Shown in pieces: positions 1 through 31,988 of a stretch of DNA of 64,000 bases; position 1 is the stretch's first letter, and every line of letters starts with the position of its first letter. The notes under the pieces were generated by a model. It was not told where the DNA came from, searched no databases, and worked only from the letters and a program-made list of their open reading frames with translations. The translations under genes and the position numbers were made by a program. Source of the DNA: Rhizobium sp. ASV8 (GTDB taxonomy: Bacteria; Pseudomonadota; Alphaproteobacteria; Rhizobiales; Rhizobiaceae); assembly GCF_016429255.1 (NCBI RefSeq), contig NZ_JAELUG010000011.1, positions 1 to 64,000 of the forward strand, read 5' to 3'.

Positions 1-704
1 GCCAAGTGATCGCCAAGGCCCTGGCCGATGATCTCAACCTGTCGGAAGACACGATCCGCAGGGATCTGCGGGAAATGGCTGCGGAGAAGCTGCTGAAGCG
101 CGTGCATGGCGGCGCGCTGCCGCTTTCGCCCGAGCTGCCGGATTTCTCGGCGCGCCAGGCCGTTTCATCGGACGAGAAGCGGCGGCTTGGCGCATTTGCG
201 GCACGCATGATCGAACCGGGGCAGACAGTATTTCTTGACGGGGGCACCACCAACGCGGAGATCGTCCGCCACCTGCCGAAAGATCTCGCCGTCACCATCG
301 TCACCCACAGCCCGACGATAGCGGGCGAGCTGGAACATCACCCTGCCGTCGACGTCATCCTGATAGGCGGCAAGCTTTACAAGCACTCGATGGTGGCAAC
401 AGGTGCCGCGGCCATGGCGGCAATCGCCGCCATACGAGCCGATATTTTCTTTCTCGGCGTCACCGCCGTTCACCCGGCGCGGGGCGTCTCCACCGGCGAC
501 TTCGAAGAAGCTGCCATCAAGCGACATATCGCCGAATGCTCCGCGGAAACTTACGTGCTGGGCACAGCGGAGAAACTAGACGCGGCGTCGCCATGCCAGA
601 TCCTGCCGATGACTGATATCTCGGGCCTGATCGTGCCGTCAGATCTTCCCGAGGAAAGCCTGGCGCCCTATCGCAACGCCGAAGTGCCGATTCTGCTCGC
701 GTGA
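1..704 (+). CDS. DeoR-family transcriptional regulator (5' end outside window)
   Basis: The reading frame is open from the window edge, so the start codon and the first part of the N-terminal helix-turn-helix are missing. The visible part begins in the recognition helix (LSEDTIRRDL, typical DeoR HTH) and continues into a DeoRC sugar-phosphate sensor domain (FLDGGTTNAEIVRHL, then the IGGKL motif near residue 120 of the visible part). DeoR repressors usually control carbohydrate catabolic genes and respond to a phosphorylated sugar. The target genes are not in the window; downstream is an unrelated DUF2127 gene on the same strand, 162 bases away. The GTG at position 6 is internal and not the start. 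Confidence 0.9.
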   Translation, partial: QVIAKALADDLNLSEDTIRRDLREMAAEKLLKRVHGGALPLSPELPDFSARQAVSSDEKRRLGAFAARMIEPGQTVFLDGGTTNAEIVRHLPKDLAVTIVTHSPTIAGELEHHPAVDVILIGGKLYKHSMVATGAAAMAAIAAIRADIFFLGVTAVHPARGVSTGDFEEAAIKRHIAECSAETYVLGTAEKLDAASPCQILPMTDISGLIVPSDLPEESLAPYRNAEVPILLA

Positions 705-25155: not shown

Positions 25156-26217
25156 ATGAACATCAAGAGCCTTCTTCTCGGCTCCGCTGCTGCTCTCGCA
25201 GCAGTTTCTGGCGCTCAGGCAGCCGATGCCATCGTCGCCGCTGAGCCGGAACCGCTCGAATACGTCCGTATTTGCGACGCATACGGCGCTGGTTATTTCT
25301 TCATTCCGGGCACGGAAACCTGCCTCAAGATCGGCGGCTACGTCCGTACCGAAGGCAAGTGGTACAATGCTTACAACCCGGCTGACCGTTTCGGCACGCT
25401 GTGGCACACCCGCGCTCAGCTCCATGTCGACACTGCGACCGACACCGAATACGGCCCGCTGAAGACCAACATGGTTCTGCGTTGGGACTGGCAGGATGGC
25501 GGCGCGACTGCCACGAAGATGGTATTCGCCAACATCAGCCTCGGCGGTTTCCTCGTCGGTAAGGCTGACTCGCAGTATAACTCGTACATCGGCTATGCCG
25601 GCGGCGTCATGAACGACGACGTTGTCTATGACGGCCCGTACGAGCTGAACCAGTTGACCTACAGCTACGACGCCGGCAACGGCTTCACGGCTGTCGTCTC
25701 GGTCGAAGACACCAACTCCGGCTCCGGCGCCACCGGCGTGAACGGCGAAGACAGCTCCAACCACTACCTGCCGGACGTCGTCGCAGGTGTTGGCTACAAG
25801 GCTGGCAACTTCGGCTTCAAGGTCGTAGGCGGTTACGACTCGATCGTTGAAGAAGGCGCGGTCAAGGCTCGCGTCGATGCCGACTTCGGCGTCTTCAAGG
25901 CCTTCTTGATGGGCGGCTGGAACACCAACGGCGACAAGCTCAACAAGTACGCAAGCTCGAACGGTGCTGGCCCTGCCAAGACCATCGGCTGGGGCGACTG
26001 GGCTCTCTGGACCGGCGTAACCGTTCCGATCAACAGCAAGCTGCAGGCCAACGCTCAGATCGCTTACACCGACTCCAAGATCTTCGCAGCTACCGCGAAC
26101 GTCAAGTGGAACCCGGTTAAGAACCTGCAGATCACGCCGGAAGTATCCTACACCAACTGGGACTCCATCAACCAGGACCAGTGGGCCGGTATCCTGCGCT
26201 TCCAGCGCACGTTCTAA
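25156..26217 (+). CDS. RopA-type outer membrane porin
   Basis: A 353-residue porin of the rhizobial type. Residues 1-22 form a signal peptide ending GAQAAD; the mature N-terminus has the family signature YVRICDAYGAGYFFIPGTETC with two cysteines, then alternating beta strands ending in RFQRTF with a terminal phenylalanine, the outer membrane assembly signal. It forms diffusion channels for small solutes. GGAG lies six bases before ATG 25156. Codon use is strongly biased (many AAC, TAC, GGC), consistent with high expression. A long hairpin terminator follows. Confidence 0.95.
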   Translation: MNIKSLLLGSAAALAAVSGAQAADAIVAAEPEPLEYVRICDAYGAGYFFIPGTETCLKIGGYVRTEGKWYNAYNPADRFGTLWHTRAQLHVDTATDTEYGPLKTNMVLRWDWQDGGATATKMVFANISLGGFLVGKADSQYNSYIGYAGGVMNDDVVYDGPYELNQLTYSYDAGNGFTAVVSVEDTNSGSGATGVNGEDSSNHYLPDVVAGVGYKAGNFGFKVVGGYDSIVEEGAVKARVDADFGVFKAFLMGGWNTNGDKLNKYASSNGAGPAKTIGWGDWALWTGVTVPINSKLQANAQIAYTDSKIFAATANVKWNPVKNLQITPEVSYTNWDSINQDQWAGILRFQRTF

Positions 26218-26264
26218 GAACTCGTTTTCGAGATCTGATCTGACTTGACCCCTGATCGGATGAG

Positions 26265-26302
26265 GACTGGCCCGACTTCCAGCGAAGTTGGGCCGGTCTT
26301 TC
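26265..26302 (+). terminator. Porin gene terminator
   Basis: A 15-base-pair stem with two G-U pairs (GACTGGCCCGACTTC at 26265-26279 with GAAGTTGGGCCGGTC at 26284-26298), loop CAGC, then TTTCC. It lies 47 bases after the porin stop. Confidence 0.85.
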
Positions 26303-26513
26303 CGAGACAGGGGTTAATTTATTCATGCAAGCCGCGAGACGGGCGAACAGCCTTGCGGGAAGCAAAGCAGCAGTCGCAGCCAGCCAGTTTGGCGTGCGCG
26401 CACCCGAGCACCGATTTCCACTTTGTAGAGAAAGGGGTGCCGCGCTACGAACTCTTCCATTTCCCGATACCAATCTCATCGACAAGCAGGATTTTTTGTC
26501 GTAGAGACAGCGC

Positions 26514-26588
26514 ATGTCGATCATTTGCGCATACGCCTCGCGATTTTATTCGTACCGCTGCTCTCAGCGGAGGCGGGCCTGTGCGTAG
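26514..26588 (+). CDS. Candidate Phe/Tyr leader peptide of the aroG attenuator
   Basis: A 24-codon frame starting ATG 26514 and ending TAG 26586-26588. Residues 7-14 read YASRFYSY, giving three Tyr and one Phe codon in eight, followed by an arginine-rich tail. Its position, just upstream of mutually exclusive hairpins, a terminator and the DAHP synthase gene, is the layout of a classical amino-acid attenuator leader. The ribosome-binding site is weak (AGAGAC about seven bases upstream). Whether it is translated is not shown by sequence alone. Confidence 0.65.
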   Translation: MSIICAYASRFYSYRCSQRRRACA

Positions 26589-26641
26589 TTAGAAAAGACA
26601 CGACAGCAAAGACCCGAACAGCCGCTAGTCTACCTGGCGGC
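26555..26641 (+). promoter_or_regulatory. Attenuator hairpins 1:2, 2:3 and 3:4 upstream of aroG
   Basis: Segment 1 CCGCTG (26555-26560) pairs with segment 2 CAGCGG (26565-26570). Segment 2 AGCGG can instead pair with CCGCT (26622-26626) in segment 3. Segment 3 GCCGCTAG (26621-26628) pairs with segment 4 CTGGCGGC (26634-26641) to form the terminator. The last Tyr codon (26553-26555) touches segment 1, so a ribosome stalled on Tyr codons would free segment 2 to form the antiterminator. Confidence 0.65.
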
Positions 26642-26648
26642 TTTTTTG
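26621..26648 (+). terminator. Rho-independent terminator in the aroG leader
   Basis: Eight-base stem GCCGCTAG/CTGGCGGC with one G-U pair, loop TCTAC, followed by six T residues (26642-26647). It lies 34 bases upstream of the aroG start, inside the leader, not after a gene. Confidence 0.85.
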
Positions 26649-26652
26649 TCGC

Positions 26653-26684
26653 CACGGTATGACCCCAAAAGGAACTATACCGTG
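26653..26684 (+). promoter_or_regulatory. Hairpin enclosing the aroG ribosome-binding site and start codon
   Basis: CACGGTAT (26653-26660) and ATACCGTG (26677-26684) are perfect 8-base inverted arms. The 16-base loop contains AAAAGGAACT, and the right arm ends in the GTG start codon. Could tune translation of aroG. Confidence 0.6.
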
Positions 26685-27740
26685 TTGAATTCCACTGACG
26701 ATTTGCGCATTCTTGAAATCACGGCACTCACGCCGCCTTCCCGGATCATCGATGAAATCCCCCGCGACCAGGCGGTGACGACCACGGTCACCGATGCGCG
26801 CAGTGCCGTTCACAATATCCTGCGCGACAACGACGACCGGCTTATCGTCGTCATCGGCCCCTGCTCGATCCACGATCCGGCGGCAGCGCGAGAATACGCT
26901 GCGCGGTTGAAGGAGCAGCGTGACCGGTTCGCCGGCGATCTCGAAATCATCATGCGGGTCTATTTTGAGAAGCCGCGTACGACGGTGGGTTGGAAGGGTC
27001 TGATCAACGATCCGCATCTCGACGGAAGCTATCGTATCGAAGAAGGCCTGCGCATTGCGCGAAAGCTGCTGGTCGACGTCAACGAGATCGGCCTGCCAGC
27101 TGGCTGCGAATATCTCGACACCATCACGCCGCAATATATCTCCGACCTCGTCAGCTGGGGCGCAATCGGCGCGAGGACGACCGAGAGCCAGGTGCACCGT
27201 CAGCTGGCGTCCGGCCTCTCCTGCCCTGTCGGCTTCAAGAACGGCACCAACGGCGATGTGCGGATCGCGCTCGACGCCATCATCGCCGCATCGCAGCCGC
27301 ATCATTTCCCGGCAGTAACCAAGGAGGGACTTGCGGCGATTGCTTCGACGCGCGGTAACGAGGACTGCCACATCATTCTGCGCGGTGGCAAGCAAACCAA
27401 CTATGACGCCGCAAGCGTTCAGGCGACCGCCGAGCAGTCCCTCAAAGTCGGGCTTGAGCCGCGGATCATCATCGACGCCAGCCATGCCAACAGCAGCAAG
27501 AACCCCGAGAATCAGCCACTCGTCGTTACTTCGGTCGCGGAGCAGGTTTCGGCTGGCGATCGGCGAATCAAGGGCATGATGATGGAGAGCAATCTCGTTG
27601 CCGGCCGCCAGGATCTCGTGCCCGGCAAGCCGCTGGTCTACGGCCAGAGCATTACCGATGGCTGCATCGACTGGCCGACTTCGGTCCGCACGCTGGAAGA
27701 TCTGGCAAAGGCGGTGCAGGCACGGCGCCGGGCGCGCTAA
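26682..27740 (+). CDS. aroG: Class I 3-deoxy-D-arabino-heptulosonate 7-phosphate (DAHP) synthase
   Basis: A 352-residue class I DAHP synthase (E. coli AroF/G/H type) that condenses phosphoenolpyruvate and erythrose 4-phosphate, the first step to aromatic amino acids. Motifs: GPCSIHD (59-65), KPRTTVGWKGLINDP (from about 97), GARTTESQ, GFKNGTNG and DASHANS. I take GTG 26682: AAAAGG is eight bases upstream; TTG 26685 is an alternative, and a TTG at 26646 lies inside the terminator T-tract and is rejected. Upstream lies an attenuator-like leader with Phe/Tyr codons, suggesting control by aromatic amino-acid supply, besides any allosteric control. Confidence 0.95.
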   Translation: MLNSTDDLRILEITALTPPSRIIDEIPRDQAVTTTVTDARSAVHNILRDNDDRLIVVIGPCSIHDPAAAREYAARLKEQRDRFAGDLEIIMRVYFEKPRTTVGWKGLINDPHLDGSYRIEEGLRIARKLLVDVNEIGLPAGCEYLDTITPQYISDLVSWGAIGARTTESQVHRQLASGLSCPVGFKNGTNGDVRIALDAIIAASQPHHFPAVTKEGLAAIASTRGNEDCHIILRGGKQTNYDAASVQATAEQSLKVGLEPRIIIDASHANSSKNPENQPLVVTSVAEQVSAGDRRIKGMMMESNLVAGRQDLVPGKPLVYGQSITDGCIDWPTSVRTLEDLAKAVQARRRAR

Positions 27741-30932: not shown

Positions 30933-31009
30933 TGGTCGGAGTGGAGTGATTCGAACACTCGACCCCCACGTCCCGAACGTGGTGCGCTACCAGACTGCGC
31001 TACACTCCG
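30933..31009 (-). tRNA. tRNA-Pro (anticodon CGG)
   Basis: 77 bases on the minus strand with CCA encoded (TGG at 30933-30935 on the plus strand). Acceptor CGGAGTG pairs with CACTCCG; anticodon stem CCACG/CGTGG encloses loop TTCGGGA, giving CGG; T-loop TTCGAAT is flanked by GAGTG/CACTC. All arms pair perfectly. Confidence 0.97.
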
Positions 31010-31913: not shown

Positions 31914-31988
31914 TGGCTGGGGCGCCAGGATTCGAACCTGGGAATGCCGGTACCAAAAACCGGTGCCTTACCGCTTGGCGACGCCCCA
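31914..31988 (-). tRNA. tRNA-Gln (anticodon TTG)
   Basis: 75 bases on the minus strand with CCA encoded. Acceptor TGGGGCG pairs with CGCCCCA; anticodon stem CCGGT/ACCGG encloses TTTTGGT, giving TTG; T-stem CCAGG/CCTGG encloses TTCGAAT. All arms pair. Confidence 0.97.

Follow-up and report, generated by a model that had tools for sequence, protein, structure and literature searches.

A putative ribosome-mediated attenuator with aromatic codons upstream of the class I DAHP synthase gene aroG in Rhizobium and other Alphaproteobacteria

Organization of the aroG leader region

The DNA analyzed, referred to as the window, is a stretch of 64,000 nucleotides from Rhizobium sp. ASV8. It carries aroG, which is preceded by a short ORF with a cluster of end-product codons upstream of this biosynthetic gene and, between this ORF and aroG, by an intrinsic terminator. 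The features are summarized in Table 1. From the end of the T run to the GTG codon of aroG at 26682, the distance is 34 bases. An earlier note on this DNA had placed the leader, segments 1 to 4, the T run and the 34-base gap, and all of these coordinates proved exact; translation likewise bore out the 24-residue peptide with three Tyr and one Phe within eight codons that had been described there.

Table 1. Features of the aroG leader region in window coordinates.
Feature	Position	Strand	Remark
-35 element TCGACA, predicted sigma-70-type promoter	26479..26484	+	conserved geometry
-10 element TAGAGA	26502..26507	+	six bases before AUG
Leader peptide ORF, MSIICAYASRFYSYRCSQRRRACA	26514..26588	+	24 aa; TAG stop 26586-26588; kept in relatives
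Regulatory codons	26532..26555	+	Tyr7 26532-26534, Phe11 26544-26546, Tyr12 26547-26549, Tyr14 26553-26555
Segment 1, CCGCTG	26555..26560	+	predicted partner: segment 2
Segment 2, CAGCGG	26565..26570	+	AGCGG 26566-26570 with CCGCT 26622-26626 as candidate antiterminator 2:3
Bridge helix, 5' strand CGGG	26574..26577	+	fold; permutation test
Bridge helix, 3' strand CCCG	26613..26616	+	fold; permutation test
Segment 3, AGCCGCTAG, 5' arm of the terminator	26620..26628	+	GCCGCTAG at 26621-26628
Segment 4, CTGGCGGCT, 3' arm of the terminator	26634..26642	+	CTGGCGGC at 26634-26641
T run of the intrinsic terminator	26642..26647	+	terminator scan
aroG, class I DAHP synthase (AroFGH type)	26682..27740	+	GTG start, AAGGA before it

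With model TIGR00034, the aroG product scored 511 bits against a cut-off of 173, which places it above the curated class I (AroFGH) threshold; with the narrower AroG model NF006723 it reached 533, below the cut-off of 568. The best solved relative was the Phe-sensitive AroG of E. coli, and the identity to E. coli AroG was about 60%. The residue aligned to Ser211 of the E. coli enzyme, a site which we take to bear on Phe/Tyr feedback specificity, is Ala in the window protein. Two tRNA genes lie on the minus strand at 30936-31009 and 31917-31988.

A class II DAHP synthase is also encoded in the source genome and was found in all 28 other genomes queried, 24 with and 4 without the class I enzyme. 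Since the class II enzyme was present in every genome queried, the attenuated class I gene looks like an accessory one. No aromatic leader was found in the approximately 330 bases upstream of the class II gene of the source genome.

The combination of features at the leader was compared with chance expectation in a survey of the whole window, whose two strands hold 723 ORFs of 10-40 codons that begin with ATG. At least four aromatic residues in nine were encoded by three of these ORFs, three had a terminator no more than 90 nt beyond the stop codon, and a promoter at fixed spacing preceded two. The leader ORF was the only one to combine two or more of these properties, and it has all three. 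In the region 26200-26750, the 3:4 hairpin was the sole site returned by the terminator scan, with 0.5 expected from shuffles. RNA beginning at the leader AUG folded better than all 200 dinucleotide shuffles (z -3.1); for a stretch beginning 14 nt further upstream, z was -2.2 and 4 of 200 shuffles were as good.

As the -10 element ends six bases before the AUG, the predicted +1 position is A26514, which would make the leader ORF leaderless. The same geometry, described by the pattern NTGACA/NCGACA-16..18-TANNNN-6..7-ATG, was observed upstream of 108 of 119 leaders, with 0.04 expected from shuffles, and the spacer was 17 nt long in 107 of the 108. Among the 11 leaders missed by the pattern, L191, L204 and L209 show, by eye, equal geometry relative to an in-frame ATG two codons upstream. 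A generic consensus promoter scan did not list the leader promoter. Shine-Dalgarno pairing of the leaders was slight, averaging -1.4 kcal/mol (-2.9 for the window leader), and for the aroG starts the mean was -5.6 kcal/mol, taking the best of the candidate in-frame starts (-4.0 for the window aroG). Judged from these sequence features, transcription is predicted to begin on the A of the leader AUG, as published for trpL of S. meliloti, and not downstream of 26588, an outcome that the earlier note had named as a refutation.

An inverted repeat, CGACAA...TTGTCG, spans the promoter spacer (26480-26501). Of the 19 closest loci, 12 carry it without mismatch (L001-L003, L005, L012-L019), and it is absent from the R. 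leguminosarum-like group; it is possibly an operator.

Conservation of the leader and its aromatic codons

The upstream regions of 125 class I aroG genes, one per genome, were examined. Sets of 120 relatives, 385 class-wide genomes and 397 order-wide genomes supplied 60, 12 and 53 of these genes, respectively. A recognizable leader precedes 122 of these 125 alphaproteobacterial genes, so that the conserved leader peptide in related genomes which the earlier note had named as a check was found. The ORF-based survey detected an aromatic leader in 121 regions, of which one (G030, L051) was spurious and was dropped; a covariance model added G395 and G305 to the remaining 120. The leader of G395 (L062) is degenerate, with one Phe and one Tyr codon, and was detected by the model; that of G305 lies on a separate contig from aroG, and its adjacency is presumed. 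The leader of G007 (L028) fails the terminator rule, yet was found by the model. Three Rhizobium class I aroG genes among the 125 have no leader (G030, G037 and G057; L051, L055 and L057), which was either lost or never acquired there. Codons, promoters and reading frames were counted over 119 loci and 2:3 energies over 107 unique sequences, while alignment A1 comprised 40 of the 119 loci, below 90% identity, and 29 chosen representatives served for ribosome masking.

Rhizobium leaders typically encode MSITSIYASRFYWYRCSQRMRVHA, those of other families MITVATSYFWYFSYDSSLAAGGSRSI or MISATAATYFWYFSYPTVPAEAGVRAI, and the linkage of the leader to class I aroG spans 13 family labels and Paracoccus. 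One leader, L061 (G473), has two aromatic clusters, MIAAPTYFALAYFARFYTCYIAGGTGAV; its relative is G395.

Specificity was evaluated by searching the 385 class-wide genomes with covariance model R1 under stricter filters. Among the matches listed, 14 reached at least 62 bits, and their genomes were precisely the 14 in which a full-length class I AroG is encoded; the next best match had 34.5 bits. Twelve of the 14 genomes had contributed to R1, and G305 and G395 had not. Thirteen of the strong matches lay directly upstream of class I aroG, and one (G305) was on another contig. Three further AroG rows in these genomes were partial and weak, with E of 1.9e-4 or worse. Any model match at E up to 0.01 was observed in 100 of the 385 genomes; most of the other listed matches were confined to the terminator-containing 3' part of the model, and some spanned the model at 21-29 bits. 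The source genome contains one high-scoring copy (87.4 bits). A second copy was considered and rejected, the remaining matches being partial and the next scoring 28.6 bits.

In named plasmid records of Paracoccus, which were outside the model, all three aroG regions had a leader, with matches of 47.3, 41.6 and 35.9 bits (E 1.7e-8 to 1.6e-11) and peptides containing SFYWFR. No model match was found upstream of aroG in any of four beta- and gammaproteobacterial controls (Cupriavidus, E. coli, Burkholderia, Salinivibrio). The E. coli record gave weak matches of 13.9 and 9.5 bits downstream of aroG, and one Salinivibrio ORF, which the model did not match, satisfied the loosest aromatic rule (3 in 9). 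A pattern derived from the leader yielded 78 matches, 67 of them in Rhizobium/Rhizobiales; the 11 in unrelated groups (L077, L084, L091, L094, L103, L111, L116, L117, L122, L135, L141) are presumably due to chance.

Codon choice within the clusters was distinctive. The Phe codons in Rhizobium leader clusters were TTT in 56 cases and TTC in 12, as against 10 and 56, respectively, in five coding stretches of the window. Outside Rhizobium the clusters show synonymous variation (TAT 99, TAC 62; TTT 114, TTC 34). Codons for Phe, Tyr and Trp occur together in 79 of 119 leaders, comprising 21 of the 55 from Rhizobium and 58 of the 64 others, and they are interleaved, as in FWYFSY; the remaining leaders have Phe and Tyr. 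The Phe/Tyr label of the earlier note fits the source genome, whose leader has no Trp codon; for the family, with 79 of 119 leaders carrying all three codons, "aromatic attenuator" is the more apt name.

The order and number of the aromatic residues vary (FWYF, YYFWF, RFYSY, RFYYF). The aromatic codons stay in frame, and the conserved RNA core that follows them is read in all three frames. In A1, the GCGG core of segment 2 was in phase 2 in all six Rhizobium rows; of the other 34 rows, 32 had it in phase 0 and two in phase 1. Even within Paracoccus it is in phase 0 in P. pantotrophus and in phase 2 in P. kondratievae and P. versutus, and the tail residues encoded by the same core differ by phase, e.g., LAE or QRR. 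In-frame aromatic codons combined with a frame-independent RNA core are a signature of ribosome-mediated attenuation.

RNA structure and ribosome position

The earlier note had described mutually exclusive 1:2, 2:3 and 3:4 hairpins and had asked for co-varying pairing in related genomes. The 3:4 hairpin stood up clearly: 95.2% of its cells in the alignment were paired, 15 cells were altered on both sides, and none of 500 shuffles was as high on pairing, double changes or score. The bridge helix gained support from permutation, and covariation of 2:3 was modest. In the window itself, 2:3 comprises five base pairs rather than six to eight and did not exceed chance level. As the best partner of segment 3, the program chose AGGCGGG, shortly after segment 2; at -9.0 kcal/mol (z -0.1), this pairing was matched by 128 of 300 shuffles. 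Being no better than shuffles, the 2:3 pairing of the window gains weight only through comparison with relatives.

Across the 107 unique sequences the mean z of 2:3 was -1.1, and in only 28 sequences was the pairing matched by no more than 15 of 300 shuffles. For the 48 Rhizobium sequences z averaged -0.28; groups f1b, f35, f221 and f78 had 2:3 helices of 6-8 base pairs with mean z of -2.3 to -3.1. In the alignment, 2:3 consists of three invariant pairs and one nearly invariant pair, and in four of the six Rhizobium rows G-C is replaced by A-U, probably through a single event; the other two rows break that pair. Its covariation score was matched by 19 of 500 shuffles, and two other covariation measures were not above shuffles (215 and 412 of 500). 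The 1:2 hairpin amounted to -8.3 to -10.7 kcal/mol in 43 of the 48 unique Rhizobium sequences and to -6.3 in the other 5, and it was weak in f35 and f1b (-1.6 to -5.2 kcal/mol).

In the folds, the bases just 3' of segment 2 pair with those just 5' of segment 3, forming the bridge helix. Over 40 sequences, mean pairing with the own partner exceeded that in all 1000 permutations (Wilcoxon p 0.011), with relatedness uncontrolled; in 14 of the 40, the own partner had no advantage over the average foreign one. RNAalifold applied to the 40 sequences of A1 returned, besides the terminator, a small hairpin that overlaps segment 2, and found neither 2:3 nor the bridge helix, so both rest on the energy, fold, covariation and permutation analyses.

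The influence of ribosome position was modeled by masking a ribosome at successive positions in the 29 representatives and determining the upstream pairing of segment 3. In all 29, at least one aromatic-codon position gave more such pairing than the stop-codon position. With the ribosome on the aromatic cluster, values were roughly 0.45-0.9 in most representatives, and at the stop codon they were at most 0.43. For the window they were 0.70 at Phe11, 0.43 at the stop codon and 0.41 without a ribosome. The low exceptions were lone aromatic codons on either side of the main cluster: Tyr7 of the window (0.33) and of two further Rhizobium groups (0.15-0.18), Phe3 in G002 (0.38), and Phe17 in G014, Tyr20 in G473 and Phe26 in G453 (each 0.05 or less).

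At equilibrium, the terminator of the window wins at every ribosome position (0.97-0.98), so antitermination must be kinetic there. Without a ribosome, upstream pairing of segment 3 was at least 0.57 in 11 of the 29 representatives, and default termination is accordingly not predicted for these; the folding model would favor it as the state without a ribosome only in part of the families.

Proposed mechanism and relation to known systems

Taken together, these observations make it very probable that an accessory class I DAHP synthase is controlled here by ribosome-mediated transcription attenuation. This reading is based on sequence and comparison, namely the parts and their conservation, the frame-independent core, the co-varying terminator, the bridge permutation, the promoter geometry and the linkage to aroG; from these we infer where transcription starts, that the ribosome stalls, that termination and read-through occur in the cell, in which order the RNA folds and which amino acid matters most.

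According to the proposed scheme, RNA polymerase would start on the A of the leader AUG, and a ribosome would load on the leaderless start and translate towards the aromatic codons. When charged tRNA-Phe or tRNA-Tyr, or in many relatives also tRNA-Trp, is short, the ribosome would stall and cover segment 1; segment 2, kept near by the bridge helix, could then pair with segment 3 before RNA polymerase has transcribed segment 4, allowing read-through into aroG. Under ample supply, the ribosome would reach the stop codon, which lies inside the loop closed by the bridge helix, so that 2:3 would be disfavored, 3:4 would form and transcription would end after about 134 nt.

Among the alternatives, the leader could be a nascent-peptide arrest switch, in which binding of a free aromatic compound by the leader peptide inside the ribosome tunnel would stall the ribosome. 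TnaC and SpeFL are switches of this kind, and the likeness of the aromatic core and tail across several families would suit such a function. The tail, however, is kept as RNA and not as peptide, being read in phases 0, 1 and 2, and the aromatic residues vary in order and number. Judged by sequence, a mechanism depending on the tail peptide would hardly tolerate such frame shifts of the core and one depending on ribosome position would, which leaves peptide arrest very unlikely. The same variability of the peptide tail bears on a role in trans of the terminated leaderless RNA or of the peptide, besides attenuation in cis. A trans function has been reported for rnTrpL/peTrpL of S. meliloti, and the architecture shared with trpL (PMC10117765, PMC7298713), here a predicted leaderless ORF followed by a terminator, points the same way; with the tail not conserved as peptide and nothing in the present data demanding a trans role, we regard this addition as unlikely.

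A constitutive promoter-proximal terminator behind a fortuitous ORF, with no amino-acid response, would agree with the weak 2:3 pairing of the window and with the dominance of its terminator at equilibrium. It does not agree with the conservation of in-frame aromatic codons, the TTT bias, the linkage to class I aroG across the family labels and Paracoccus, or the permutation support for the bridge helix, and it is very unlikely. A riboswitch was also considered and rejected: no Rfam family, RF01859 (Phe_leader) included, matched the window at E up to 5, and conservation was strongest in the segment arms and the codons.

The ribosome-mediated attenuator favored here has several relatives by description. 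The closest in target is the aroR-aroF attenuator of C. glutamicum (Neshat et al. 2014, as presented in the review PMC11802643), where a Phe/Tyr leader peptide likewise precedes a DAHP synthase gene and stalling raises transcription; as far as that description goes, it is set apart by its actinobacterial host, by the Phe-Tyr-Phe motif and by a response to limitation of Phe and not of Tyr. The S. meliloti trpL-trpE(G) system is an alphaproteobacterial aromatic attenuator whose transcript begins at the leader AUG (PMC10117765, PMC7298713), but, compared by the description available, it senses Trp, controls another gene and has a 14-residue peptide. E. coli pheL-pheA (Rfam RF01859, Phe_leader) shares a Phe-rich leader peptide and a terminator with the window element and differs from it in the target gene. 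A relation to RF01859 was considered and found weak: of 14 related loci scanned, 3 matched it at 26.3-28.5 bits (E 0.2-0.63), below the gathering score of 55. For Acholeplasma, uORFC-13-1 has been proposed upstream of aroF, with a Phe codon by a terminator before a DAHP synthase gene; by its description, this proposed uORF differs in phylum, in having a ribosome binding site and in its motif, and the same source mentions that attenuation of E. coli aroF had been hypothesized earlier as well (PMC8632094).

The caution about novelty expressed in the earlier note was therefore justified, as DAHP synthase attenuation has, in the sources seen, been described in C. glutamicum and proposed in Acholeplasma. 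No description of the element in Alphaproteobacteria was found in the literature searched and in Rfam, a scope that did not include most subscription journals, Vitreschak et al. 2004 or Panina et al. 2001. The work of Vitreschak et al. (FEMS Microbiol Lett) reportedly deals with attenuators in proteobacteria and would be the likeliest place for an earlier prediction, and such a prediction in other literature is possible.

A wider interpretation, to which we give an even chance, is that an ancient alphaproteobacterial leaderless peptide polls the tRNAs for Phe, Tyr and Trp, so that a shortage of any of them would call up the class I enzyme as a reserve while the class II enzyme provides the standing supply, with Rhizobium partly narrowed to Phe and Tyr. 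The RNA core shifted between reading frames represents a natural experiment on codon versus peptide sensing, and the element offers a clean case for leaderless translation of a leader peptide. For the Alphaproteobacteria owning a class I enzyme, a single rule is proposed for entry into the shikimate pathway, in which a class II enzyme would be complemented by an on-demand class I enzyme under a multivalent attenuator.
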